Shown here piece after piece: positions 2 to 26,276 of a stretch of 31,972 bases of DNA; position 1 is the stretch's first letter; each line of letters starts with the position of its first letter. The position numbers were made by a program, and so were the translations under genes. The stretch spans positions 64,579 through 96,550 of the forward strand of contig PDIM01010344.1 of assembly GCA_002811675.1 (NCBI GenBank), given 5' to 3'. Under the pieces are notes generated by a model. It searched no databases, was not told the DNA's origin, and worked only from the letters and a program-made list of their open reading frames with translations. The DNA is from Ichthyosporea sp. XGB-2017a (lineage: Eukaryota > Opisthokonta > Ichthyosporea).

Positions 2-220
2 GCTGTTGAAGAAAAACAGACTGTTGAAGAAGAACAGTCTGTTCAAGAAGAGCGGGCTGTTGAAGAAGAACAGGTCGTTGAAGAAGAACAAGCTGTTGAA
101 GAAGAACAAGCTGCTGTCGAAGAGGGCATTGAAGAAGAGAGGGCTGTAGAAGAAGAGCAGGTCGTTGACGAAGTGCAAAATGTTGAAAAAGAGCAGGCTA
201 TTGAAGAAGACGAGATTGTT
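2..220 (+). repeat. Degenerate 18-bp tandem repeat coding for VEEEQ(A/V) hexapeptides
   Basis: Codons for Val-Glu-Glu-Glu-Gln plus one variable residue recur about every 18 bases from the window edge to about 220, with increasing drift. The array lies inside the repeat-built gene, keeps its frame and probably continues upstream of the window. Confidence 0.8.
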
Positions 221-1996
221 GAAGAAAACCTTATTTCTGAAGAACAGGCCAATGCTGAAGATGATACCAATAATAGTGAAAATAACGACAGCAATGTGAC
301 TGTAAAAACTCCCGGTAAAAAACGTACAATCCTGCCGGAAGAGATCAAAACTGGGTCAATTTTGAGAAAGAGGTGTGCCAAAATGGAAACCCCCCTTAGA
401 TTGGATATTGAGAAAGGCAAGAATTTGACAACAGTGTATAAGAAAATGAAAACGCCTGTCCGACAAGAAATTGTGAAAGGAAAGGAGCTAAAGAAAGTGT
501 ATAAGAAAATGAAAACGCCCATGCGACAGGAAATTATGAAAGGAAAGGAGCTAAAGAAAGTGTATAAGAAAATGAACACTCCGGTTCGAAATCAAATCAC
601 CAAGGGCACGAAATTGAATAATGTGTACAAGAAGCTTGGTACTCCTGTTCGACAGGAAATAGTCAAAGGCAAAACTCTAAGACCTGTAGCTACCATTAAT
701 GAAGAAAGTGAAATGGCTCCAGAGCATGTTCCCGCTGCCGAGGAGGCGAACTTGCCAGAAGAGGGCGCAGCGGATGTTCCTGTAGTGCAAACACAAGTGG
801 CCGAAGACAAAGAAGTTGAGATTGAAGAGAGAAAGGCCGAGACCGAGAAGGTGAAATCTAGGGTTGAAGAGAACGAAGCCATGGTGGAGGAAAAGGAACC
901 CAAAGTGGAGGAGAAGGAGTCCGAACTTGATGAGAAAGAAGCCAGTGTGTATGAGAAAGACTTAGATATTGATGAAGAAGTGGAAAAAGAAGGAACAAAA
1001 GAAGTCCGCAGATCATCAAGGAAAAGAAAGACTGTAGATAGTCAAAAGGAGAAGCCAAAGAAGCAGCAGCCCAAAGCCAGAAAGACCTCATCCGAAGCAA
1101 AGACCCAAACGAATATTCCTTTAGTCTTAGAGTCAATTCCCGAGGACGAGGAATTGAAGCTCGAAGATGTGGTTCTTCCAAAGCCTAAACGCGGTAAAAC
1201 GAAAGGAAAGCAACGCAGAGTGATTCATGAAAAAGAAATGGAAGATACTCCAGAAAAAATTGTGCAGAAAAAAACAGTTGATGAGAACCCCAAAGAAACC
1301 TCAGTGACTAAAAAAGCGGGGAAAGCTACATGTGGGAGAAGAACAAGAGCACGACGTGTAGAGGAAGCTCCAATGGAAGAAAAGGAGGAGACTGAAGAAG
1401 TCAAGCCCAAGCGAAGTACCCGCAAAGCTGTAAAAGAAGTTGAAGAGGTCGAAGATGTTAAGCCCAAGCGAAGCACCCGCAAAGCTGCAAAAGAAGTTGA
1501 AGATGTCAAGCCCAAGCGAAGCACCCGCAAAGCGGTGAAAGAAGTTGAGGAGGTTGAAGATGTCAAGCCCAAGCGAATCACTCGCAAAGCGGTGAAAGAA
1601 GTTGAGGAGGTTGAAGACGTCAAACCCAAGCGAAGCACTCGCAAAGCGGTGAAAGAAGTTGAGGAGGTTGAAGATGTCAAGCCCAAGCGAAGCACTCGCA
1701 AAGCGGCAAAAGAAGTTGAAGAAATTAAGCCCAAGCGAAGCACTCGCAAAGCGTCTAAAGACCTTGAAGAAGTTGAAGAAGTGAAGCCTAAGCGAAGCAC
1801 TCGCAGGGCCGCTAAGGAAATTGAAGATATTGAAAAGGAGGAGCCTCAGCCAAAGAGAAAGCGAACATCTTCAAATAAGAACGACGTTTCCTCGGACCCC
1901 AGCCCTGCCCCAAAGCGAGCCACTCGCACCAGGGCGAAGAAGGATACAAAATCACCTGCTGTCATCACCAGACGTACCCGTTCATCGCGCAAATGA
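2..1996 (+). CDS. Repeat-built lysine/glutamate-rich, probably nuclear protein (5' end outside window)
   Basis: The frame is open from base 2 to the TGA at 1994-1996, giving at least 664 residues. No start codon precedes it in the window, so the N-terminus lies upstream. Three repeat classes follow each other. First are glutamate-rich VEEEQ-type hexapeptides (2-220). Next are five 21-residue units with the core TPxRxEIxKG (380-691). Last are eight copies of KPKRSTRKA separated by acidic KEVEEVEDV-like linkers (1403-1840). The tail is very basic (RATRTRAKK, TRRTRSSRK). There are no membrane segments or obvious globular domains, and nearly the whole chain should be disordered. The alternating basic clusters suggest nuclear location and DNA, RNA or microtubule binding. 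That is inference; I do not recognise a named family. The TP in each 21-residue unit could be a proline-directed kinase site. The gene converges on dynactin subunit 6. Confidence 0.8.
   Translation, partial: AVEEKQTVEEEQSVQEERAVEEEQVVEEEQAVEEEQAAVEEGIEEERAVEEEQVVDEVQNVEKEQAIEEDEIVEENLISEEQANAEDDTNNSENNDSNVTVKTPGKKRTILPEEIKTGSILRKRCAKMETPLRLDIEKGKNLTTVYKKMKTPVRQEIVKGKELKKVYKKMKTPMRQEIMKGKELKKVYKKMNTPVRNQITKGTKLNNVYKKLGTPVRQEIVKGKTLRPVATINEESEMAPEHVPAAEEANLPEEGAADVPVVQTQVAEDKEVEIEERKAETEKVKSRVEENEAMVEEKEPKVEEKESELDEKEASVYEKDLDIDEEVEKEGTKEVRRSSRKRKTVDSQKEKPKKQQPKARKTSSEAKTQTNIPLVLESIPEDEELKLEDVVLPKPKRGKTKGKQRRVIHEKEMEDTPEKIVQKKTVDENPKETSVTKKAGKATCGRRTRARRVEEAPMEEKEETEEVKPKRSTRKAVKEVEEVEDVKPKRSTRKAAKEVEDVKPKRSTRKAVKEVEEVEDVKPKRITRKAVKEVEEVEDVKPKRSTRKAVKEVEEVEDVKPKRSTRKAAKEVEEIKPKRSTRKASKDLEEVEEVKPKRSTRRAAKEIEDIEKEEPQPKRKRTSSNKNDVSSDPSPAPKRATRTRAKKDTKSPAVITRRTRSSRK
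380..691 (+). repeat. Five 63-bp units coding for a 21-residue TPxRxEIxKG repeat
   Basis: Units start at 380, 443, 506, 569 and 632. Each encodes K(M/L)xTPxRxxIxKGxxLxxVYK. Thr-Pro, Arg, Ile, Lys-Gly and Leu are constant while other positions vary, so selection seems to act on the peptide. Units two and three are the most alike in DNA and look like the latest duplication. Confidence 0.88.
1403..1840 (+). repeat. Eight KPKRSTRKA repeats with acidic linkers
   Basis: Eight copies of the nonapeptide KPKR(S/I)TR(K/R)A alternate with linkers of the KEVEEVEDV type. The usual period is 57 bp (19 residues), with shorter spacers after copies two and six. Adjacent copies are nearly identical in DNA, so the array probably varies in length between strains. 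Confidence 0.88.
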
Positions 1997-6400: not shown

Positions 6401-6534
6401 TTCACGCGGCAGGAAAGGAAGTTGAAATCACCAAGGAAGACGAGCAAAACTACACAATTATCAGCGACATACGCAAATTCAAAAAGCACTGTGAGCTTTT
6501 TCCTTTGACAAGTCGGCTTGCGAATAGTCGATAG
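3403..6534 (+). CDS. IDE: Insulin-degrading enzyme (insulysin), M16A zinc metallopeptidase
   Basis: Three exons, 3403-5910, 6013-6160 and 6290-6534, join in frame to 966 residues (human IDE 1019, including its presequence). The inverted zinc motif is H67-F-C-E70-H71. The third zinc ligand is E148 in NNEHEKN. The C-terminal half keeps R789 and Y796 (LRTHEQLGY), which in the human enzyme reach into the active-site chamber. Four M16 domains are expected. The protein should cleave amyloidogenic and short peptides in the cytosol; no presequence or SKL-like peroxisomal signal is seen. I chose the first ATG of MNKMGEM. ATGs at 3412 and 3421 are possible. The frame upstream to 3121 is T-rich leader, not protein. 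The last 56 coding bases overlap the coding end of the opposite-strand gene. Confidence 0.93.
5911..6012 (+). other. Intron 1 of the insulysin gene (102 nt, phase 0)
   Basis: Donor GTAAGC after GAG at 5910, acceptor TTTAG at 6012. Splicing joins TNFE to SYLTEMSSEEF, which continues the family alignment. Without splicing a TGA follows within 15 bases. A CTAAT branch-like motif precedes a T-rich tract. Confidence 0.9.
6161..6289 (+). other. Intron 2 of the insulysin gene (129 nt, phase 1)
   Basis: Donor GTAAGC at 6161, acceptor TATATAG at 6289. Splicing gives FDRVHIEVGALEKL, matching the conserved FDRDNTEVAYL block of the family. Its TTTATT (6265-6270) is also the best poly(A) signal for the antisense gene. 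Confidence 0.87.
6265..6270 (-). terminator. Candidate poly(A) signal for the Sel1-motif gene
   Basis: AATAAA on the minus strand about 210 bases beyond the stop at 6479, inside insulysin intron 2. No nearer hexamer is present. If used, the two transcripts overlap tail to tail by about 300 bases. Confidence 0.4.
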
Positions 6535-8605
6535 AATATTTTTGCAATAAACGGGATTTTTGTTCCTGAAATGAGTTCATGAAAGTAACTAGGTTTTTGC
6601 TGTATTGTTTTTGTCTTCGAGATGCCAGTGTATGGGAAAAATAAGTTGAAGACGCCAGTGAAATCCCCTTAAAGAATTGAACGTAAGCCTTAAGACCAAA
6701 GTTCACGCCGTGAGGCTCAACACTTTCGACAAAATCTTCAACAGTAAGTTGATCTCTCTGGTCAAGCAGCTTTACACTTTGTAGCATTTTGGTATTTTCC
6801 TCCTTCGATTTAGAAGTATCAATAATCTGCAAAAGACGGGTGTCACTCTTGATACGTTTCAGTAGATGAACCAAGAATCGAGATTCAATACTCTCAACCG
6901 TTTTGATAAATGCAGCCTTGTACGCTTTGTCATTTGGCCAGCATTTTGAAAGTCGCTTCAGAGCACCCATTAAGTCTTTGGTCACATACTCGTTCTTCTT
7001 CTCACCAATTCCCACGCAGCTAATGAGAATGTATTCCATTCCCTTCTCAATGTTCTTTTCCACACCCAGACCGTTAAGATAGCATTCCCCAATGAGTTTT
7101 TGAACACTGGCCCCAACTTTTGTCTCCGAAGGATAGTCCAATTTCCAGCCAGGCTTCACCGCTGTTTTGGCGCAATAAAACGCGTCTTCCGTCATCTTTC
7201 CAGTCACAAAATACGCCTTTGCGTATAAATATGAAGCCCTCTTTCTAACCTCGAGAGAATCTTTTGCCCCCTCCCAGTAGCTCTGTTGTTGTTTCCCCTT
7301 CACGCTCTCCCAGAATGCACGTTCGCTTTCTGGCAAACTGATAATTTCATTTGAGCTTGGTAAATCCCATAAGACCTTCCCGAATGCAGCACTTTCCTTC
7401 AGATTCACGGCTTCTATAACTTCATTCAGTAGCAGCGATACTCGCTCACCAATAACTGGGTCTAATACCAAATCACTTTTGTTCCACATATCATCTATTG
7501 GAACTACAAATTGCATTCCTTGCTTTGATGAAAACGCCTGTACAAGCAAAGCATCCACTACTACCATTTTCATATCCTTGTCATCAAATGAAGCAGTCAT
7601 GAATTCATTCACATATTCCTTTCGCTTTCTCTTAATCTTCAGGTACTTTTTCATACAGCTCGCATACACCTGCATCCAGGTAACGCCAGAGGACTGTGAT
7701 CCATTGGCAATGGTGTCTTCATGGCTGTGATCCACTCGGATCCTGAGAGTTGAGCATGTTGAACGTGACAAGGGTTGTGATGTATGGTTAGTTATAGTGG
7801 CATTTTCAGCTGCCCATTGCTCTAGAAGCACACCCATCACAGATGAAGCGCGGGTATATTCTCCCTTTAACCGAAGTCTGTCAACAGCGTTTAATCTAGA
7901 GTCTTCCTCGAGGATGATGTTCAGGAAGGATGTATACCCCTGTAACCCCCTTACTATTGTGAATCTTTCCCGCATGGGGACTTTCTTTTGTATGCCTGTT
8001 CTCAGCCAGGGCCCGCTCCATACCTGACGGTGAAGATAATCCAGCCACAGCTGTGTGGCACGCTCATCTTTTCCTCCTAAACACTCCTTTACCAAATGAT
8101 GCTTTGTTTTCGTCACATCCAGAAGCAAATCTAACAATCCCTCAACAATATACAATGACCCCGCGTTTTCACATCTCTCCGGGTATGTCGGCTCGCTATT
8201 ACTAGTCCAATTATTCAAAATCCTCCTTGCCCACTCACAGTCCCAAAATGCCCGTTTCCGTTTTTCAATGGCGTGGCGAATGTCCTGTTCAAAGATTGCC
8301 TTCTTAAGCACCCTCGACGAAGATATCTTCCCGTCCTTATTCCCCTCGAATGGTGCAATGCTCTTCTGTCGGTACTTCCGAGGTTCAATTTCCCCTTCCT
8401 TCAGCGCTACGCTGCACCATCCCCTGCACCCGTGTGTAACTCTTTGCCCTACTGGGCCCCTTCTTCCTACAGCGATACAGCCAAGCCTTGGCCCCAGTCC
8501 AAGAGGAGGCTTTTCCCCATGAACAACTTGTAGAGGGATGCTGATTCTCCTCGCCCACCCAAGTTTAATCCCTGAAAGCATCCCCATATAGTTATTTATC
8601 CGCAC
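6479..8605 (-). CDS. Unknown protein with a Sel1-like motif
   Basis: One open frame of 708 residues from ATG at 8605 to TGA at 6479, with normal protein-like composition; I do not recognise the family. The first 70 residues are rich in Arg, Gly and hydrophobic residues and nearly free of acids (WARRISIPLQ, GRRGPVGQR, GCRGWCSVAL). That resembles a mitochondrial presequence (inference). At about residues 500-530, KLIGECYLNGLGVEKNIEKG fits a Sel1/TPR-like repeat. The segment before it (RASYLYAKAYFVTGKMTEDAFYCA) could be a weaker helical repeat. The rest is predicted helical and soluble. A helical-repeat scaffold or organelle factor is possible but unproven. The gene is divergent from DIS3 and converges on insulysin, sharing 56 coding bases with it. 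In-frame ATGs at 8587 and 8581 are alternative starts. Confidence 0.8.
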   Translation of the reverse strand: MRINNYMGMLSGIKLGWARRISIPLQVVHGEKPPLGLGPRLGCIAVGRRGPVGQRVTHGCRGWCSVALKEGEIEPRKYRQKSIAPFEGNKDGKISSSRVLKKAIFEQDIRHAIEKRKRAFWDCEWARRILNNWTSNSEPTYPERCENAGSLYIVEGLLDLLLDVTKTKHHLVKECLGGKDERATQLWLDYLHRQVWSGPWLRTGIQKKVPMRERFTIVRGLQGYTSFLNIILEEDSRLNAVDRLRLKGEYTRASSVMGVLLEQWAAENATITNHTSQPLSRSTCSTLRIRVDHSHEDTIANGSQSSGVTWMQVYASCMKKYLKIKRKRKEYVNEFMTASFDDKDMKMVVVDALLVQAFSSKQGMQFVVPIDDMWNKSDLVLDPVIGERVSLLLNEVIEAVNLKESAAFGKVLWDLPSSNEIISLPESERAFWESVKGKQQQSYWEGAKDSLEVRKRASYLYAKAYFVTGKMTEDAFYCAKTAVKPGWKLDYPSETKVGASVQKLIGECYLNGLGVEKNIEKGMEYILISCVGIGEKKNEYVTKDLMGALKRLSKCWPNDKAYKAAFIKTVESIESRFLVHLLKRIKSDTRLLQIIDTSKSKEENTKMLQSVKLLDQRDQLTVEDFVESVEPHGVNFGLKAYVQFFKGISLASSTYFSHTLASRRQKQYSKNLVTFMNSFQEQKSRLLQKYSIDYSQADLSKEKAHSAF
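6546..6551 (+). terminator. Poly(A) signal AATAAA, insulysin
   Basis: AATAAA lies 11 bases after the insulysin stop, within the antisense coding region of the opposite-strand gene. It is the only AATAAA close to this stop. Confidence 0.55.
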
Positions 8606-15247: not shown

Positions 15248-15430
15248 ATAAGTAACTTTGTATTACTTGTAGGAGCCATGCTCTATTGTGTTATCCATTT
15301 TCCTTACAATTTGTTATACTCTAACTAATAAATCAGCACTGAAAGAGAGAAGGAAGAAAGGAATAATCTTAATGAGTGTATAATTGACCCCTGAGTGGAC
15401 TGATTGGCGAAGAGTTGGATAAATATCAAA

Positions 15431-18400
15431 ATGTCTAACCTCGGCGATACGACAACTCCTCAAATCTCCGTCGGGGTGGAAGAGCCCTCGATTATGATTG
15501 AGGATCTGAATGAAGAAGCTCCCGATCAATATGATTGTATAAATCAATTAGATGAGAAAACAACGGAAACCGAAGAGGAGGCTACCAAGAATCCTAGGGC
15601 ACTCAAGGTGGGACTTACTCAAATGGTTGAAACCAGCAATGCACTTGGGGGGGGCAGTAGCAAGCGGCGGAGAAGCTCTTGCAGTACATACACCCCATAC
15701 TTGAGTTATTGCACTGTCGATGGTGAACTTTTCCGCATCAGCAAAATAGTTGGTGAGAATCGATGTTGGGAAGGCAAAAGAATTGATGTTGTACTGGTAC
15801 ATCGAAAATCAGAAAATGATACGCCAAAGCTAAAGAAGCTTCGGCGAGCATTTGAGAAAGCCCTTTGGAATAAGCAATGTGTTATTAAACACACCACCGG
15901 CGGTAGAAATGATGAGTTCTGCTTTACCTTGGTGCATATACCGTACCATAGGATGGCCATTGTGGCAGAAAGTCTCAAACTGAAACTTCCACTAAAGAAC
16001 ATGGCGCAAATTAAAGAGCTGACACACACTTCTTCGTTGATGCGTCTAAGCGAAGGATGGAGCGAGTGGTGGCAACGCCAGTTGCAGATATTTAAAAGGG
16101 GCATTCCTCTTTACAAATGCGATCCAGAGACATATGCTGGAAGGTTTACTGTAAATATGCAGAACAAATTTGTTGGATATACGTCAACCTGCCCTGAAAA
16201 TGTTTTCAGTGATGCCCATCGTACGCTCATTGCAAAAGATCTCATTCACAAAACAGGAAGAAAAGAGTGCTCATACCAGTCAGTGATGCAAAAGGGGGCT
16301 TACAATTGCAGCTTCCCGTTGCACACAGGGGCACATAGTTCCACAGAAAAAGAGCGGAAGGAGACCAGCGGAATTGGACTCCATTTGCGGGCGGTTCTTT
16401 ACGATACTTGGGCGACGTATAGAAATATGTTCAAATATCAACCCATTCATCTCATTCGGGAATATTTTGGGGAGAAAACAGCTTTTTACTTTGCATGGAT
16501 GGGTCATTATGTCACTTGGTTAATATTTCCTTCTTTTGTAGGCCTTATATACCTGTTCTATGGTTTGGGTAAGTAAATTGAAAGTTTTTGATTTTGCTTG
16601 TTCCTATCATTTGTTTGCTAACATATTCAAGTCATTCAAAATATAGGAACATACAAAAACGTTTCGTATACTGAAGAAGCGTGTGATCCTTCTTACAATA
16701 TGCTCTTGTGTCAAACAACCGATGAAAAAATAGCCCCCGATGTGATGGAGACGCTAGACGAACAGTGTGAAGGCATTCAGGCGTCCACCATATTCGACAA
16801 CGACTTTACTATCGCCTTTTCTGTGTTTATGGCAGTTTGGTCTATTATGTTCATTGCTTCATGGAAAAGGTACAACAGCGAGCTTGCCTTTTACTGGGAT
16901 GTCCAAGGCATGGAGAAGGTTGACGTCGATAGGGTGCAATATTATGGCACAGTTGAACGCAAAAATCCAGTCACAGGAAAAATGGAGATGAGGTACCCTA
17001 CAGGGCAACGGACTTTGAAATATTTGTGCTCTTTTGTTACAACACTTACCTTGTGCACTTGTGTAATTATCGTTATGGTTTCTATTATTATATACAAATT
17101 GGCAACAATTGAAGACTACTCCGAAGCAAAAAGGGATCACGAGAATGAAGAAGGTCCTCTTATAGCGGCTATCACTGGAGGTATTCTCAATTTGTTTGCC
17201 ATTTTAATTCTTGGCGTAATCTACAGAAAAGTGGCTGTGGTATTGAATGACTGGGAAAATCATCGAACAGATGCAAAATATGAGGACAGGCTTATTCTGA
17301 AACAGTTCCTATTTGAATTTGTCAATTCTTACTCGTCTTTGTTCTATATTGCCTTTTTTAAAGGAAAGTTTACGGGAACGCCTCTGGACCCAAATAAGTT
17401 TTTTGGGTATCGTGCAGAGGCGTGTGCACCATACGGTTGCATGGGCGAACTTAGTATCCAGCTTGGTATCATTTTTACAGGAAAGCAAGCCTTCAGATTT
17501 GTCAAAGAAGTTCTTGTTCCCTTTTTGCACCGCAAATGGATCATTTACCGGCAGGGCCGGCCAGAAGAAATGAAATGTGAGTGGGAGAAGGATAACTGTC
17601 TCTTACCCTACCCAGGTATCTTCCGGGAGTATTTGGATATGTGCCTGCAGTATGGTTACATAATGTTGTTCACAGCAGCATTTCCTGTAGCTCCTCTCAT
17701 TGCAATATGCACAAATATTCTGGAAATAAGAATAGATGCGTCTCGATACCTTAAATACACTAAGCGACCTGCAGCGATGAGGGCCGAGAACATTGGCCGG
17801 TGGCAGTTTATAATAGAGCTTTTGAATAGTGCTAGTATTCTGACAAATGGAGCTATACTTGCATTTACTGCCGATTTTATTCCTCTCCAAGTATGGTTAG
17901 ATGAAGGAAATCCCGAGAAAATGTACTTTATTGGCAAATACGCATACAGTCAGAAGGGCAATCTGCCAACAGGGCCATATGCACAGTGTTATTATGTTGC
18001 TTACAGAGATAGAGATGGGTTCAAAACAAGTAAGTGGTCTTTTCACTTCAATATTTGAAATGTGTCAACTGTTTTCGCTAACGAAATCCTTTTAATTTTG
18101 CCTTTTGGAACATATTGTAGAGTTCTTTTATCAAGTTCTCAGTGCTCAATTTGCATTTTTCGTATGTTGGGTTGCTGGAATTTACATTCTGCAAAGAACA
18201 ATAGCGGCTGCGATACCAAGTCTCCCAAGAAAAGTGCAGTTGGCAATGCGTAAACAAGACTATGAGGCTGGCTTAGCGCTTGAAAGTATTCGGCTTGAAG
18301 ACGAAGACGAAGACGCTGAGTTCAACAGCGACGAGGAGGAAGCTGGAGGAGGAGAACACAAACCGCAGACAGAGTTAGATATAGATGGGGTCGATTTTGT

Positions 18401-18799: not shown

Positions 18800-21700
18800 A
18801 TGACGAGCAGTCCTTTGTATCGCTTGGTTGACTTGGGATTGCAGCAATGGGCGGGGGAGCGAACGACGTCTTCGTGCTCAAACGACACGTGGTTATTTGT
18901 AGGCACAGACAAGGGATCCGTTTATGTATATGATTGCATAGGAGGTGCCTTTCTGTATGGGAGCAAAGAGTGCATGGGGCAAATCGGGGAGGGGGTTTCT
19001 TGCATGGCGTGTACACCCGGCGGACTCCTTGTGGTAGGAGGCACACACGGGCATCTGCTCATGATGGACTGGCTGTCGAATGTCCAGGAAGACCTAGGGA
19101 ATGTCGAGACTTTGAATGGGGAAAGATTGGGGGAATCCATTGGTTTTCTACGCTCGGAAAGTCGTCAAGATGGCTACAGTGAAATTGAGGATTTGGCTTT
19201 GTCCCCAGAATTTTCGCTCACTACAGGTTCTTTATTTATTCTATGTAAAGACAATCTTGTTCTGAAGAGAACGCGAAATAAGCTGTTTGGGTTTCGTGAT
19301 ACTGTGATTTTGAAAAATTCAGATATCAAAAAATTTCAAAGAAGCAACAGCTTTGTAGCTGGCGGTAGTTCTTTTACAACAAAACATCTCTCAATGTCAG
19401 ACGCAGATGCCTTGAATTCGTCCCCAGGCGTGGCACGCAGAAACGTTGCTAGCTTTCCATTAAGTTCCCAGGGGCAGGGGCCCACTGTCCCAGACTGCAG
19501 TGCGAGTAGTGAGTCTGTCATAACTAACCCATTTACAGGAGGTCCATTCCAGGGACGTCTTGTGTACGATGAGCCGTATTTGCTGTTTATCGCAGGCAGT
19601 GGTGTGTATGTCTACCATGCGCTCAAGGACAGACTGCTAGCTCGAGTAGGTGTGGAAAGCTTGAACAAGACAGCCTTTGGGGATGGGATCAATTCACAAC
19701 AAATAGAAGCAGACATTAGTGGGATGAAAGACATGGCTGGCTCATTCGTCTTTTCGTCGCACCACGTTGTTTACACTGAAGCCTTTTTGATTGTAAAAAG
19801 CTTCCATTTTTTGTTTTTTTGTGAGCACAGATTTTTCACCCAGGAAAAAGTGACCGAAAGTGTTCCTCTGCGTCTCATAAAGAGCTTTAAGTTTTCGAGC
19901 CCAATTTTGTGCATGTCTTTGCTGAGTAAATGTTGTCTGCTTCTTGTTTTTGAAAGTATTCCCCAAACGAATGTTGGCTCTGAAGGCGAAGAAGATGCGA
20001 ACATTTCTTTCGAATATCAAGTCGCCTTTTTTGATTTGAATTGCATGAAGCTAATTGACTTGTTAAGTATACCGAAGTCTCAAAGCCGAATGGTTGGGAT
20101 TGTTGCTCCATCGTTGTATTCTAGTGGTCAGCTAGAAAAGGAGGGATATTGCGAGTCCAGTATGTCCAAATCGTTACGATTGTACTCCCTTGCTAAAATC
20201 TTGTCAGGGAACCAATTGCCACCCGCAATGGCAAAGATTCCTAACTTCAATGAGCTTAGCAGCGATACTATTCCGACTTCCAGCATTGGCTCCGCGGGAT
20301 CAATTTGGGGTTCTCAAACTCCATCTCACAAAGATTCTTCAATGGATCATGTTATTTTACTTTTCGAGCACAAAGCGTATAGTTTAAGACCTTTACATAA
20401 TTCCGAGCACGCCTTTTGGTACATAGCAAAGCAGCGTTTCGCAGATGCACTTGTAGTGTGCGGGAAGAGTGCTAAAGTTAAAGAGTCACTGGAAGTGGCA
20501 CATGAGAGCGCGTGTGTTCAATGGGAACAAGGCCACTTGTATGGGGGCGTTCAAATCTGGGTCGAAAGTGTTCTTCCATACTGTGCACCGTCATTTTGGG
20601 TGGCTTTGTCTGATATGCTTTCTTCAGTGGATAAATTGTACTTACTGGAGCCATTTTTGCCTTTCTCGGACAGACATCTTCTCCCAGAGACCACATATAC
20701 AGAACTATTACTCTCCTATTTAAAATCAAATGCATATATTACCCTTCTTGACTGTATATTGCGTTGGCCAGTGGTTTACAATGTTTCTGTTCTTATTTCT
20801 GCCATTGCATCACGCTCTATCAATGTACTGATAGAGGCATGTGAAACAAAGTCAATGTTTGAGTGTATATTTCAATGTAAAATAGAGTCCTTTATTAAGG
20901 AAAGTAGGGACTCCATGGAGTTCAATATTTTAGGTTTTGTCAAGGGCATTGCAAAATACTCTGTATTTCTTAAGGAATTTTCCCAGAGTGAAAACCTACC
21001 AAAGATATGCAACGTGACTCCCCTCTTTTTTGCTCTTTATAAGCTCCTGGATTACAGTAATTGTCAATTGGAGGCCTGTCACATTTTATGTGGGGTATAT
21101 ACCTTGTACAAAGTGCGCCTGAGCTGTCCATTCAGCAAATATGAAGTCAGCAAGGATGCGTGTCCCCCTCACTTTGTATTAACAGGTAGGGAAGAGATTT
21201 GTGATTCAGATCACGTGAAGTTAAAATACATGAAGCTGTGCCCACCCCATCCTCTTTCGTACGCGATTTCTCATAGAATAGTAGAAAAAATATTCGGTGA
21301 CTACAACTTTACGAACGCTGATGGAGGTGAGTTACAGGTGCCATCAAGTTCAACTAGTTTGGTGTGCAGTGCTGTGGCTGAACAGTTTGAAGTTCCCATT
21401 TGTGTGCGCTTTTATGCAGCTTGTGGCTACGAAAATCCCGAGGATAGCAACAAGTTTGGTTATGTTCTTTTTTCATTGCTATTCAGATTGGACGTTCAAA
21501 AAATTCTTGATCTATTGGCGAAATCCAAAATATCGTGCGCTTCGGTAAGTGTTTGTGTTTTGTGAAGTGTACTGAAATGTTGATGGAGCGAGGCACCGGT
21601 TTCTGATTGTAAATTTGAATTTAAAGATTACCCGTAAGCTCATTAAGGAGCTTATTCTTCTCCCCCAAAATGGATGCCTAGTGACGCTTGAATCTTGCAA

Positions 21701-22130: not shown

Positions 22131-22136
22131 TTTATT
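22131..22136 (-). terminator. Minus-strand AATAAA overlapping the receptor cyclase stop codon
   Basis: On the minus strand the last codons read AAA TAA A, so the hexamer contains the TAA stop. No other minus-strand AATAAA occurs before the end of the convergent gene at 21905. The 3' UTR would then be only a few tens of bases, or a variant signal is used. Confidence 0.35.
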
Positions 22137-25100
22137 TGATCTCGTGATCATTCATTCCAACAGCTTTCGATAAATCGGGCAGAGGTTGATCAAAGCCATC
22201 GCTTCCTGTTAACCAATACGTTGTCATCTCCCCTTTGCCCTTTACTTGCAAAACACCACGCTCAGTAATGTAGTAACCCCCAAGTTTAGTCAAAACACTT
22301 TGAGTGGCTGAGGACATGTGGATACGTAACGCTAATCCTGCAGACTCCATCCGAGAAGCTGTATTAACAGTATCTCCAAATAGACAATAGCGCGGCATTT
22401 TGAGACCTACAACCCCTGCCACACACGGTCCGCTATGCATTCCGATGCGTAGCTGTAGCTGCGAGCCGGGGATATGGCGAATACAAAAGGACCCGATAGC
22501 GGAGAGAAGACTTAGCGACATGTTTGCAATTTCCCCTGCATGCCTGTCACCATTGCGGATTGGTAACCCCGAAACAACCATATAAGCATCCCCAATGGTT
22601 TCTACCTTGTACACGTCAAAATCATCTATTATAGAGTCAAAGCATGTGTAAAGGTCATTTAGAAGAGCCACCACTATTACCAAATACAAAAGAGAGAAAA
22701 TCCAGAAAGACCACTGTTAGCACCTCTTTTACTTGGAACTTGGAATTTTGTTACAAAAAACTTACCCTCTAACGGTGAAGAGCTTCCAGCTATGCTGGTA
22801 AAGCCCACTATATCGCTGAAAAATATTGTTACACATTCAAATGTTTCTGGTTCAACGCATTCACCCCGCTTCAACTGTTCCGAGATAGATTTCGGTAGCA
22901 TTCGACCCAGTAACTCATCAGTTCTTTCGAGAAGCTCCTTTGTCAGCTCCTTTTCGGCCATTAAATCTTTTGTTCTCTCTTGCACCAGTCCTTCGAGATT
23001 TTTAGCATAGGACTCTAACATTGATGCCATCTTGTCCATTATATCCACATTTCGGTCGGGATTAGCCTTTTTGAGATTGCTGACAAGCCATGAGAATGCT
23101 GGACGCTCGTGCGGATTCACACACACGCATCTCTGTAAGATATTGGAAATGCTCTTAGGGAAGTTGCTTACCCGATTTTGGTCTACACAAGGTGACAATT
23201 GATTTTTCATTACACGTGATACAATTTCGATGGGCTCCATATTAACACTAGCGAAAGGATAGTCCCTGTTAATGAGTTCACTCAAGATAATACCAAAGCT
23301 GTATACATCCCCTTCAATGCTACCACTGGACTGGTCGCACCCCACTATTATTCCATCTTCATTTTCCTTCAAATGCTCTGGCGCTGTCCATAAAAGAGCA
23401 TCGTAGTGACGATACGTATTGAGGTCCTCTGACTCTTCGTTTACCCATCTTTTCAATGAGCGCCAACCAAAACCTGATATTTTTAGATTCCATCTACTAT
23501 CCACAAGGCAGTTTGTTGATTTCAAATTTCCATGGTATCCAAAATATGTGGATGAGATATACTTCATGCCCTGAGCCAAATCTGTAAGGAGAGAAAACTT
23601 GAACATCCAACCCAGCTGAATAGACACTGCTATAATTATGTCCGATATACTTCCTTTGTCGTAGTATCCCAATAATACAGCAACATTTGGCGGGTCAATA
23701 CAAGCTCCAACAAATTCGGCAATGTTCGGATGGTGAATATCAATGCGCTTCTTCATCTCAACAAGTAAAAAGCGGTCAATTTCTATATTTGAAATATTTT
23801 CCAAGAGATTCACAGCACATTTGCGCTCGTGATACGTTCCATGAAGAATGAATGCTGTGTTTCGGTTTCTCCCAGAAGCAAAGGAATGTCTAGGTTCAGA
23901 ATTTTCACTTTCAAACGAAATAATTGATTTAGAGCCGGCTTTCATTTCGTCATCAAACACAATGTCATCGTAATGTACACGCCATACCATATTATTTAGT
24001 TCACGTTCACGTTGCTTTTTTTTAATAATAACCCAAACGACTAAAAAGGCGATCATAAGAGCCCCAGCTCCAGCAATTCCGGCTATAATGGCAGGGTTAG
24101 AGAACAAAGAATGCGAAGAAGATGGCTGGCCTTGAATTTCGGACATGGGATACATTAAACGAAGGTCCTTAACTAATCCACTGGAAAGAAAGCCTCCAAA
24201 GATCAATAAAGAGCTCAGGTTGAAATAAGCACACATATCGAAGGCTGGAATAATATCATACTTGCAAGGGGTGGTGGTGCTGTTTGACGCATCAAATAAT
24301 ACCATATCGAAAGAATGTAAACCCTGGGGCATAGAGGTGGCTTCATCTGGTGCCCATGAATTCTTTCTTATATTGTAAACAAAAGCTTTGGCTGAAGTAG
24401 CAGAGCTATTTTTTCCTCCAAGGACCAAAAGGCGACGACGGTCGATCGCATATATGCGATGCCTACTCAAACCGGGGGGGGCTCCAGCGGAGACACCAGA
24501 GGGTAAAGCCGTGAATGTTCTTGTGACTGTATTAATGCGATAAAAAGAACTTTCGATTCCAGTAAGCGTCTCCCCTCCGTGTAAATATATAATGCCTGGG
24601 TAAGTCACCTGATCTGGGTCGGCCACCATTGCACAGGATCGCATTTGAGGTAGCCCAGCGCCAGTGTATGAAATGGCAGACCAAGTGTTTGTCGAAGAAT
24701 CGTACTTGTAGAAGTCATTTTTCAAGGCCAAAGAAGAATCAAACCCCCCAAATACAAAGAGATAATTGGCGATGGAACAGTAGCACATAGAGTGGCGAGC
24801 CGATGGCGTGGTGCCCGACGGATTTAATTGTGTCCATACACCGGTGCTGGTACTGTATCGCCACAAATCATTTCTTGCCGAATTGCTTGTTGCTTGGCCT
24901 CCAAAGATGTACATATCACTTCCAAACATAAACGTAGCATGAAAAGCTCTCACCGGAGGTGCTCCAGGTGACGTTTCGTTGTACAATAGTGACCATGACT
25001 GCTGGTTGTAATCTAGCTGATATAGATTTCCTGTTTGGCCGTTCGCGTCTTGTCCCCCGTAAAGAAAAAACTTGTTACTGCTGGGAATGGTTTCAAAGGA

Positions 25101-26276
25101 ATGTCCTGCAAGAGGGGGAGGATTGGTGCCAATAAGCTGTAATATATTGTACACGTTAGTGGCGTTTGATAAAGTAGTGGCAAGATGGCCCGTGCCTCTG
25201 TCAACGTTTGTGCTTATCAGCTGAGACTTTAGTTGCGAGAACAAATGGTCAATGACAAAGGATGTCGGTTTTTGTGTTACTTTAGGGCATGGATCATCTG
25301 TTATTTCGGTAAACAAAGCTAACTCTTGCAATTTGTTGCATGCTAAAGTGTCATGGCAGGGAGCGAGCCCCACACCATCAACAGCGGCATCTATTAATTT
25401 GTTCCCCCCTTCGAAAGTCCCAGAGAAGCGATCTTTGAGTGATATTTCAACAGCCACATTTATATTCTTTAGAGCACTGCTAAGGATGTATCCTGAGTAT
25501 GACTTTTGAGAATTAGTTGTAGCATCGAAAAAAGTTGTTTTCCATTCATCAACGTCCACACCAACCACCCAAGTCTTTGAATTCTTTGCTGCACTCTCAA
25601 TTGCCCCCGATCCCATTCCACCGCCGACCCCGAAGATAACATCTGCGGAGTTCGCAACGGTGCGAACTGCCGCCTGTTCCCCAAGCGTGGCATCAACAAA
25701 GCTTGGCACATATTCCCCGGCCACGCGACACTCTGGACAGGCGGCATAAACACCCATCACATATCCATTTACAAATTTCCTGACAGCAGGAACAGGAATT
25801 CCCCCAATGACCCCAACAACTTTAGTGCTGGTTACCAGACCCGCAGTTACACCCGCAAGAAACCCTGCCTCATCTTCAGCAAAGATGAGACCTTGTATGT
25901 TAGCGGTGGAGGCAGTCCCATCAACAATAGAAAAGGTCTTAGATGAAAAGCGAGTGGCCGCTTCGTTGGTGATTTCCTCCCAAGCAAATCCAAGAGTTAT
26001 AATGTGATCCACCGAAGAATCACTGGCAATAGAATCAATAACTCCGACGGCTGGGTTGAGAACTTGGTACAAGCACGTGGCCGCGCCTGAACCAGACCCA
26101 TTTAGTTTATCAAAGAAGGCAATGCAGCCATCCATGGCCAATTGCCCGTACCCAATAACGATCCCATTGGACTGCAATGGGGTATTTCCAATAATCACCA
26201 CCTTGACAGCCCCACAATGGAACGGGATATTGATGATGAAGAAGAAGAGAAGCAGGAATGTTTTACCCAATCCCAT
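22132..26276 (-). CDS. Receptor guanylate cyclase: BMP/PnrA-like and Kelch ectodomain, pseudokinase, cyclase
   Basis: Exons 26276-22766 and 22673-22132 give 1350 residues. Signal peptide 1-23. Residues 24-300 match the bacterial Bmp/PnrA substrate-binding family ([59 protein letters not shown]). Residues 385-710 hold six Kelch repeats (YIFGGQ, FVFGGF, YLHGGE, VLGGK, IFGGF). One membrane helix spans about 728-751. The kinase homology domain is 800-1068; it has N823 in place of the VAIK Lys, HGN915-917 for HRD and GFG935-937 for DFG, so it is probably inactive. A dimerisation helix (1080-1140) leads to the cyclase. Metal acids are D1155 (FFSDIVGF) and D1199. E1195 and C1267 select GTP; N1274 and R1278 are kept. 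It should make cGMP on the cytosolic side in response to an extracellular ligand. A nucleoside ligand is inference from the PnrA family. Confidence 0.94.
22674..22765 (-). other. Intron of the receptor cyclase gene (92 nt, phase 1)
   Basis: On the minus strand: donor GTAAGT, branch-like GCTAAC (plus 22716-22721), acceptor AATAG. It splits the cyclase domain between SSSPLE and [10 protein letters not shown]; the join restores the conserved cyclase sequence exactly. Confidence 0.95.

Follow-up and report, generated by a model that had tools for sequence, protein, structure and literature searches.

A Bmp-Kelch receptor guanylate cyclase of the ichthyosporean Chromosphaera perkinsii and the wider distribution of its ectodomain

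In animals, receptor guanylate cyclases are either receptors for peptides or orphans. On class C G protein-coupled receptors (GPCRs), ANF, BMP, OpuAC and other binding domains have been described in fungi, along with Pentaxin on one Capsaspora class C GPCR and BMP on 13 Dictyostelium receptors (Krishnan 2012; excerpts of PMC3251606), and the word Kelch is absent from the main text of that paper. A 2025 survey of GPCRs in the close relatives of animals has no Kelch in its main text and BMP in its references only (PMC12716839). Here, we describe a gene for a receptor guanylate cyclase whose extracellular half combines a PnrA/Bmp substrate-binding domain with a Kelch propeller. It lies in a stretch of 31,972 nucleotides (the window; PDIM01010344.1, positions 64,579 to 96,550) at the end of contig C182 in a 25.06-Mb assembly of 291 contigs, which we searched for paralogues. 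The source genome is that of Chromosphaera perkinsii, an ichthyosporean assigned to Dermocystida (Grau-Bove 2017; excerpts of PMC5560861). Among the matches listed in a literature search without subscription papers or preprints, no title or opening of an abstract described a Bmp or PnrA guanylate cyclase. Each part was already known, as was the ectodomain cassette on GPCRs; what appears new is its fusion to a receptor guanylate cyclase.

Architecture of the receptor

The encoded protein has the order of a receptor guanylate cyclase, with a signal peptide, one membrane helix, a kinase-homology domain and a cyclase domain (Table 1). A sequence-only reading of the window had proposed the coordinates and the domain order, on which Pfam, two confident structure models and matches to solved structures agree; the minus strand and the intron are additions to that reading. 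A single open frame of 1199 codons runs from the start codon into the intron and spans the signal peptide to the start of the cyclase, and the gene ends in TAA at 22134-22132. In this frame, Pfam places Bmp (PF02608) at residues 72-305 (E 3e-36; 125.2 bits against a curated cut-off of 24.1), Kelch (PF24681; E 1e-45), PK_Tyr_Ser-Thr at 814-1068 (E 2e-29) and the start of Guanylate_cyc from 1142, and PF00211 matches the remainder of the cyclase, which exon 2 encodes (E 8e-57; C182:86785-87252). Neither ANF_receptor (PF01094) nor 7tm_3 (PF00003) is among the 19 Pfam families found for the frame at E up to 1, which agrees with the earlier view that the ectodomain is not of the ANF type. Hydropathy peaks at the N terminus and, strongly, at one internal segment, 729-747 (2.54), and two weak peaks, at 139-157 (1.66) and 880-898 (1.68), fall within the Bmp and kinase folds.

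The intracellular half is close to animal receptor cyclases, as had been proposed. Its closest solved proteins by sequence are chains of natriuretic peptide receptor 1 (NPR1), which match the cyclase and linker at E 1e-98 and the kinase-homology domain at E 3.5e-43. Two motifs of the cyclase half, 17 and 12 residues long, are present, and stretches of 11 and 12 residues are identical to NPR1 in the alignment. The last two stretches hold the guanine-selecting Glu and Cys (E1195 and C1267), which are the same as in NPR1, as is the metal Asp pair of the cyclase domain (D1155 and D1199). Read by eye, the kinase-homology domain has HGN in place of HRD, N823 at the position of the usual Lys and G935 at that of the DFG Asp, and it is thus most likely a pseudokinase. 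The kinase-homology domain of NPR1 is a pseudokinase; one paralogue, C265, has Lys and Asp at the positions of N823 and G935.

PF02608 matches six places in the genome, five of them with a cyclase downstream. In three paralogues (C265, C255 and C107), the whole receptor lies in one intron-free open frame with the same domain order, and each frame is letter-for-letter identical to a single EukProt protein with a name beginning Nk52_evm. A study of p53 homologues applies this prefix to C. perkinsii, class Ichthyosporea (excerpts of PMC6981761). Given the Pfam E values and these three paralogues, chance is excluded as an explanation of the architecture. It is scarcely credible that the gene model has merged a bacterial-type binding protein gene with an adjoining, unrelated cyclase gene. 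One intron is inferred here and a further locus, C174, has a Bmp-Kelch copy without its own cyclase, but the frame described above reaches uninterrupted from signal peptide to cyclase start, and the three single-frame paralogues are each known as one protein. Because those paralogues hold the entire receptor without interruption, we consider the fusion to be no gene-model artefact, and they argue against separate genes or transcripts for ectodomain and cyclase.

Table 1. Coordinates of the receptor gene and its parts in the window
Feature	Position	Strand	Remarks
Bmp-Kelch receptor guanylate cyclase, whole coding region	22132..26276	minus	1350 aa once spliced, no internal stop
Exon 1	26276-22766	minus	start of spliced frame
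Intron, 92 nt, GT-AG (GTAAG...AATAG), phase 1, inferred	22674..22765	minus	frame restored as in NPR1 alignment
Exon 2: remaining cyclase catalytic domain (E1195, D1199, C1267) and stop codon	22132..22673	minus	
Signal peptide, residues 1-23	26208..26276	minus	hydropathy peak, boundary by eye
PnrA/Bmp substrate-binding domain, residues 24-316	25329..26207	minus	Pfam, structure model, pocket comparison
Kelch propeller, residues 371-713	24138..25166	minus	Pfam, structure model, alignment
Single transmembrane helix, residues 729-749	24030..24092	minus	hydropathy, end by eye
Kinase-homology domain, residues 814-1068	23073..23837	minus	Pfam, NPR1 alignment
Linker helix (signalling-helix region), residues 1085-1140	22857..23024	minus	aligned with NPR1
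Guanylate cyclase catalytic domain, first part, residues 1142-1170, with metal-binding D1155	22766..22853	minus	Pfam, NPR1 alignment

Pocket, propeller and a possible mechanism

For the model of the full ectodomain, the VIA rows give the propeller only, and Foldseek also lists PnrA and AtzT; the Bmp part was therefore modelled and searched separately. The resulting confident model has the PnrA fold, and its best matches among solved structures are the nucleoside-bound Lbp, BmpD and PnrA. No other fold emerged for residues 24-300, and their assignment to the Bmp/PnrA family by the sequence-only reading holds. The residues equivalent to the binding pocket are Y43, D119, F168, F193, V240, D241 and K270. 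Mapped by alignment and spacing, Y43 and F193 keep the aromatic sandwich formed in BmpA by F27 and F176, and D119, D241 and K270 keep Asp98, Asp225 and Lys242, which are named as ribose-engaging in BmpA (excerpts of PMC13325309). The Asp and Asn of the base-side specificity loop (D24 in BmpA and N28 in BmpD, excerpts of PMC13325309; D78 and N82 in P48, excerpts of PMC12892991) are not kept, and V40 and G44 stand in their place, a point that counts against a nucleoside ligand. The pocket comparison covered all 22 eukaryotic rows (first 13 in one alignment, then widened), among which Chloropicon is the sole row to keep the Asn and Gaertneriomyces is a row without Asp at the D98 position. Since the ribose-side and aromatic positions are kept and the base-side pair is not, a nucleoside-like ligand is plausible, with no particular molecule predicted. 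A substantial but lesser possibility is that the same receptor binds a purine base, a pterin or folate, a flavin, vitamin B6 or another ringed metabolite between the same aromatics; against this stand the three retained equivalents of ribose-engaging residues and the nucleoside complexes that head the structural matches.

The Kelch repeats earlier placed at residues 385-710 are recovered in a modelled Kelch propeller of about six blades and 23 strands (approximately 371-713). The propeller had been proposed as a spacer or second binding site. Because Bmp and Kelch form a conserved unit that also occurs on fungal class C GPCRs, an integral place in the sensor is more probable for it than the role of a mere spacer. 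The nearest structural matches of its model are LZTR1 and KLHDC2, and in those entries they bind proteins and peptides. This likeness, the membrane-proximal position of the propeller and a ligand role that rests on prediction would suit an adhesion or docking module that engages a protein or glycan through the propeller, with the cyclase regulated internally or constitutive. We consider such a module unlikely, as the pocket residues persist in an ectodomain whose overall identity has fallen to about 30%, and the cassette also occurs on fungal seven-transmembrane (7TM) class C receptors, a family otherwise gated by flytraps.

On balance, we favour a single-pass, cGMP-making receptor gated by a nucleoside-like ligand through the PnrA/Bmp flytrap and the Kelch propeller. 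A small nucleoside-like molecule would bind between the two lobes of the extracellular flytrap, its ring between the aromatic residues and its sugar side held by the conserved Asp and Lys residues. The flytrap would pack on the Kelch propeller, which would carry it on the membrane, and its closure would be relayed by the propeller and then by the membrane helix to the kinase-homology and cyclase domains, which, as a dimer, would make cGMP. We infer the ligand class, the dimerisation, the direction of regulation and chemosensing as the cellular role.

Relatives of the ectodomain and of the cyclase

Outside C. perkinsii, the best relatives among the matches listed are proteins of chytrids and blastocladialeans, which combine Bmp, Kelch and 7tm_3, and a protein of Pigoraptor chileana (P0005, from EukProt Opistho-2, which we take to be this species), which has Bmp and Kelch. 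In a Pfam scan of seven of these relatives, the Pigoraptor protein included, six have 7tm_3. A profile search with precomputed domains added, among the matches listed, proteins of Allomyces (AMAG_08984), Siphonaria (a record flagged by its source as possible contamination), Chloropicon and Prymnesium. The Chloropicon transcriptome protein, itself possible contamination, has Bmp, Kelch and 7tm_3, and the Prymnesium protein has Bmp, Kelch and ANF by precomputed domains. In an alignment of 13 rows, homology extends through the linker and the membrane-proximal region, with Cys 330, 671 and 682 at least 90% conserved and Cys 51 and 68 invariant; ectodomain identity overall falls to the level given above.

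A phylogeny of the Bmp domain comprised 59 rows, two of them from one Phlyctochytrium protein, with Olpidium and P0057 excluded for their partial domains. Nineteen rows (five from C. perkinsii, 13 fungal and one from Pigoraptor) form one group with support of 100/99, within which the five C. perkinsii rows group together (89/87). Placement is unsure for C174, Gaertneriomyces and Pigoraptor, all three on long branches, and the metagenome row P0038 falls beside Chloropicon inside the wider eukaryotic set. Judged by these alignments, Bmp-Kelch is an ectodomain cassette of older eukaryotic origin: chytrid and blastocladialean fungi have a counterpart that is homologous over its full length and is found on class C GPCRs. 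As separate observations, the Pigoraptor protein carries Bmp-Kelch on a multi-pass region without a Pfam-named family (Pfam scan), and P0156 of Prymnesium parvum carries it on an unnamed multi-pass region (precomputed domains and sequence). Protein searches relied on exact-word sharing within a limited length range (one search listed 120 of 206 matches, and the window protein was absent as a named source record); among the matches listed, Bmp-Kelch-cyclase came only from C. perkinsii, a weak absence elsewhere.

Within the C. perkinsii genome, none of the six Bmp matches is followed by 7tm_3 on its own strand over the next 6 kb. At C174, the cyclase is in separate frames after the Bmp-Kelch frame, and the gene model is putative. 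The same contig holds two identical 5170-bp tandem copies of a gene with Bmp and partial Kelch (L040 and L041; G000:C174:22500-36000), of which the second alone has a cyclase within 5.5 kb and the first is the sixth Bmp match; they are either a recent duplication or an assembly artefact.

PF00211 gives at least 89 matches in 73 groups, which is a rough gene count only. We picked 20 loci for their Bmp domains or for the highest scores among the cyclase matches, so that they are not a random sample of the 73 groups. Pfam was run on 18 of them (19 proteins); of the other two, L042 is the gene of the window, scanned as above, and L052 was left out. The 13 other receptor cyclases carry ANF_receptor (five), OpuAC (two), laminin-G/pentaxin-type domains (two), Peripla_BP_4 (one), NMT1_2 with CUB and EGF (one), CUB and EGF (one) or no named ectodomain (one). 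OpuAC, Peripla_BP_4 and NMT1_2, found on L043, L044, L047 and L048, are bacterial-type domains unexpected on guanylate cyclases. Across the genome, 17 of the 46 merged ANF_receptor places have a cyclase downstream and seven have 7tm_3 downstream; a cyclase likewise follows OpuAC in three of four places and Peripla_BP_4 in one of two. The cyclase chassis of C. perkinsii carries exchanged ectodomains: OpuAC, sugar-binding, NMT1, ANF and laminin-G. A further 22 of the 46 ANF_receptor places lack both a cyclase in the next 5.5 kb and 7tm_3 in the next 3 kb, and some of these may represent other kinds of receptor or genes that are split.

The sequence-only reading was right about Bmp/PnrA, Kelch and an animal-like cyclase, and its view of the receptor as an oddity needs widening because the Bmp-Kelch unit is shared with fungi and the receptor belongs to a family with exchanged ectodomains. 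We do not claim a repeated fusion of the Bmp-Kelch cassette to the cyclase: a single clade of the cyclase halves was rejected with 30 rows, including all five Bmp rows (AU p 0.0165, bootstrap not settled), and was not rejected with 19 rows (p 0.35 for the kinase-homology and cyclase domains, 0.15 for the last 260 residues), a set that left out C174, whose cyclase is joined from two frames, and ten other rows. Synonymous sites are saturated.

Bacterial contamination is ruled out by the intron in the gene, the identity of the paralogues with EukProt proteins and the eukaryotic neighbours in the window, where four other gene products match Dis3/Rrp44, Utp13, insulinase and anoctamin. The anoctamin gene (15404-18058, plus strand) occupies two frames, with a likely intron between 16576 and 16700 separating them. 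Three other frames in the window had no Pfam match at E 0.001: 2-1996 (plus, 664 aa), 6479-8605 (minus, 708 aa) and 18800-21565 (plus, 921 aa).

Significance and comparison with known systems

The best reading of the locus is a cyclase-coupled chemoreceptor drawn from a pool of interchangeable ectodomains. More broadly, and tentatively, Bmp-Kelch may be an ancient eukaryotic cassette for sensing nucleosides or pterins that feeds varied outputs, namely fungal class C GPCRs, ichthyosporean cyclases and, in one filasterean and one haptophyte, multi-pass proteins of other kinds; C. perkinsii would then swap bacterial-type ectodomains on one cGMP chassis, doing the work of chytrid GPCRs. Should a close unicellular relative of animals couple bacterial-type metabolite-binding domains to an NPR1-like cyclase, this would point to direct metabolite sensing via cGMP as part of the history of the receptor cyclase family. 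The shared ectodomain lends itself to a test of a single sensor that feeds a G protein in one setting and a cyclase in another, and the paralogues supply ready ectodomains for ligand screens.

Compared with animal NPR1/GC-A, the receptor has the same single membrane helix, kinase-homology domain, linker helix and cyclase catalytic domain, but its ectodomain is PnrA/Bmp and Kelch where that of NPR1 is ANF_receptor. The bacterial lipoproteins PnrA, BmpD and Lbp share the fold and most pocket positions; they belong to ABC transporters, whereas here the domain is fused to a receptor and other residues stand in for the base-side Asp and Asn. Trypanosome receptor adenylate cyclases are a precedent for flytraps on a protist cyclase, with flytraps outside, one membrane helix and a cyclase inside, although theirs are two flytraps on an adenylate cyclase rather than Bmp and Kelch (excerpts of PMC6027212). 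Dictyostelium Grl receptors likewise place a Bmp-type or flytrap ectodomain on a eukaryotic receptor, but in GrlJ (783 aa) Bmp is followed by 7TM, and Kelch is not mentioned in the excerpted text (excerpts of PMC1885808). The nearest functional precedent for chemosensing by a flytrap receptor, as far as the excerpted account goes, is the Dictyostelium receptor fAR1, a flytrap-bearing class C GPCR that mediates chemotaxis to folate and the binding of lipopolysaccharide and is tied to phagocytosis (excerpts of PMC5969738). The fungal class C GPCRs, Allomyces AMAG_08984 and its relatives, share Bmp followed by Kelch as well as the conserved cysteines, and differ in their output, which is a 7TM GPCR in the fungi and a cyclase in C. 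perkinsii.
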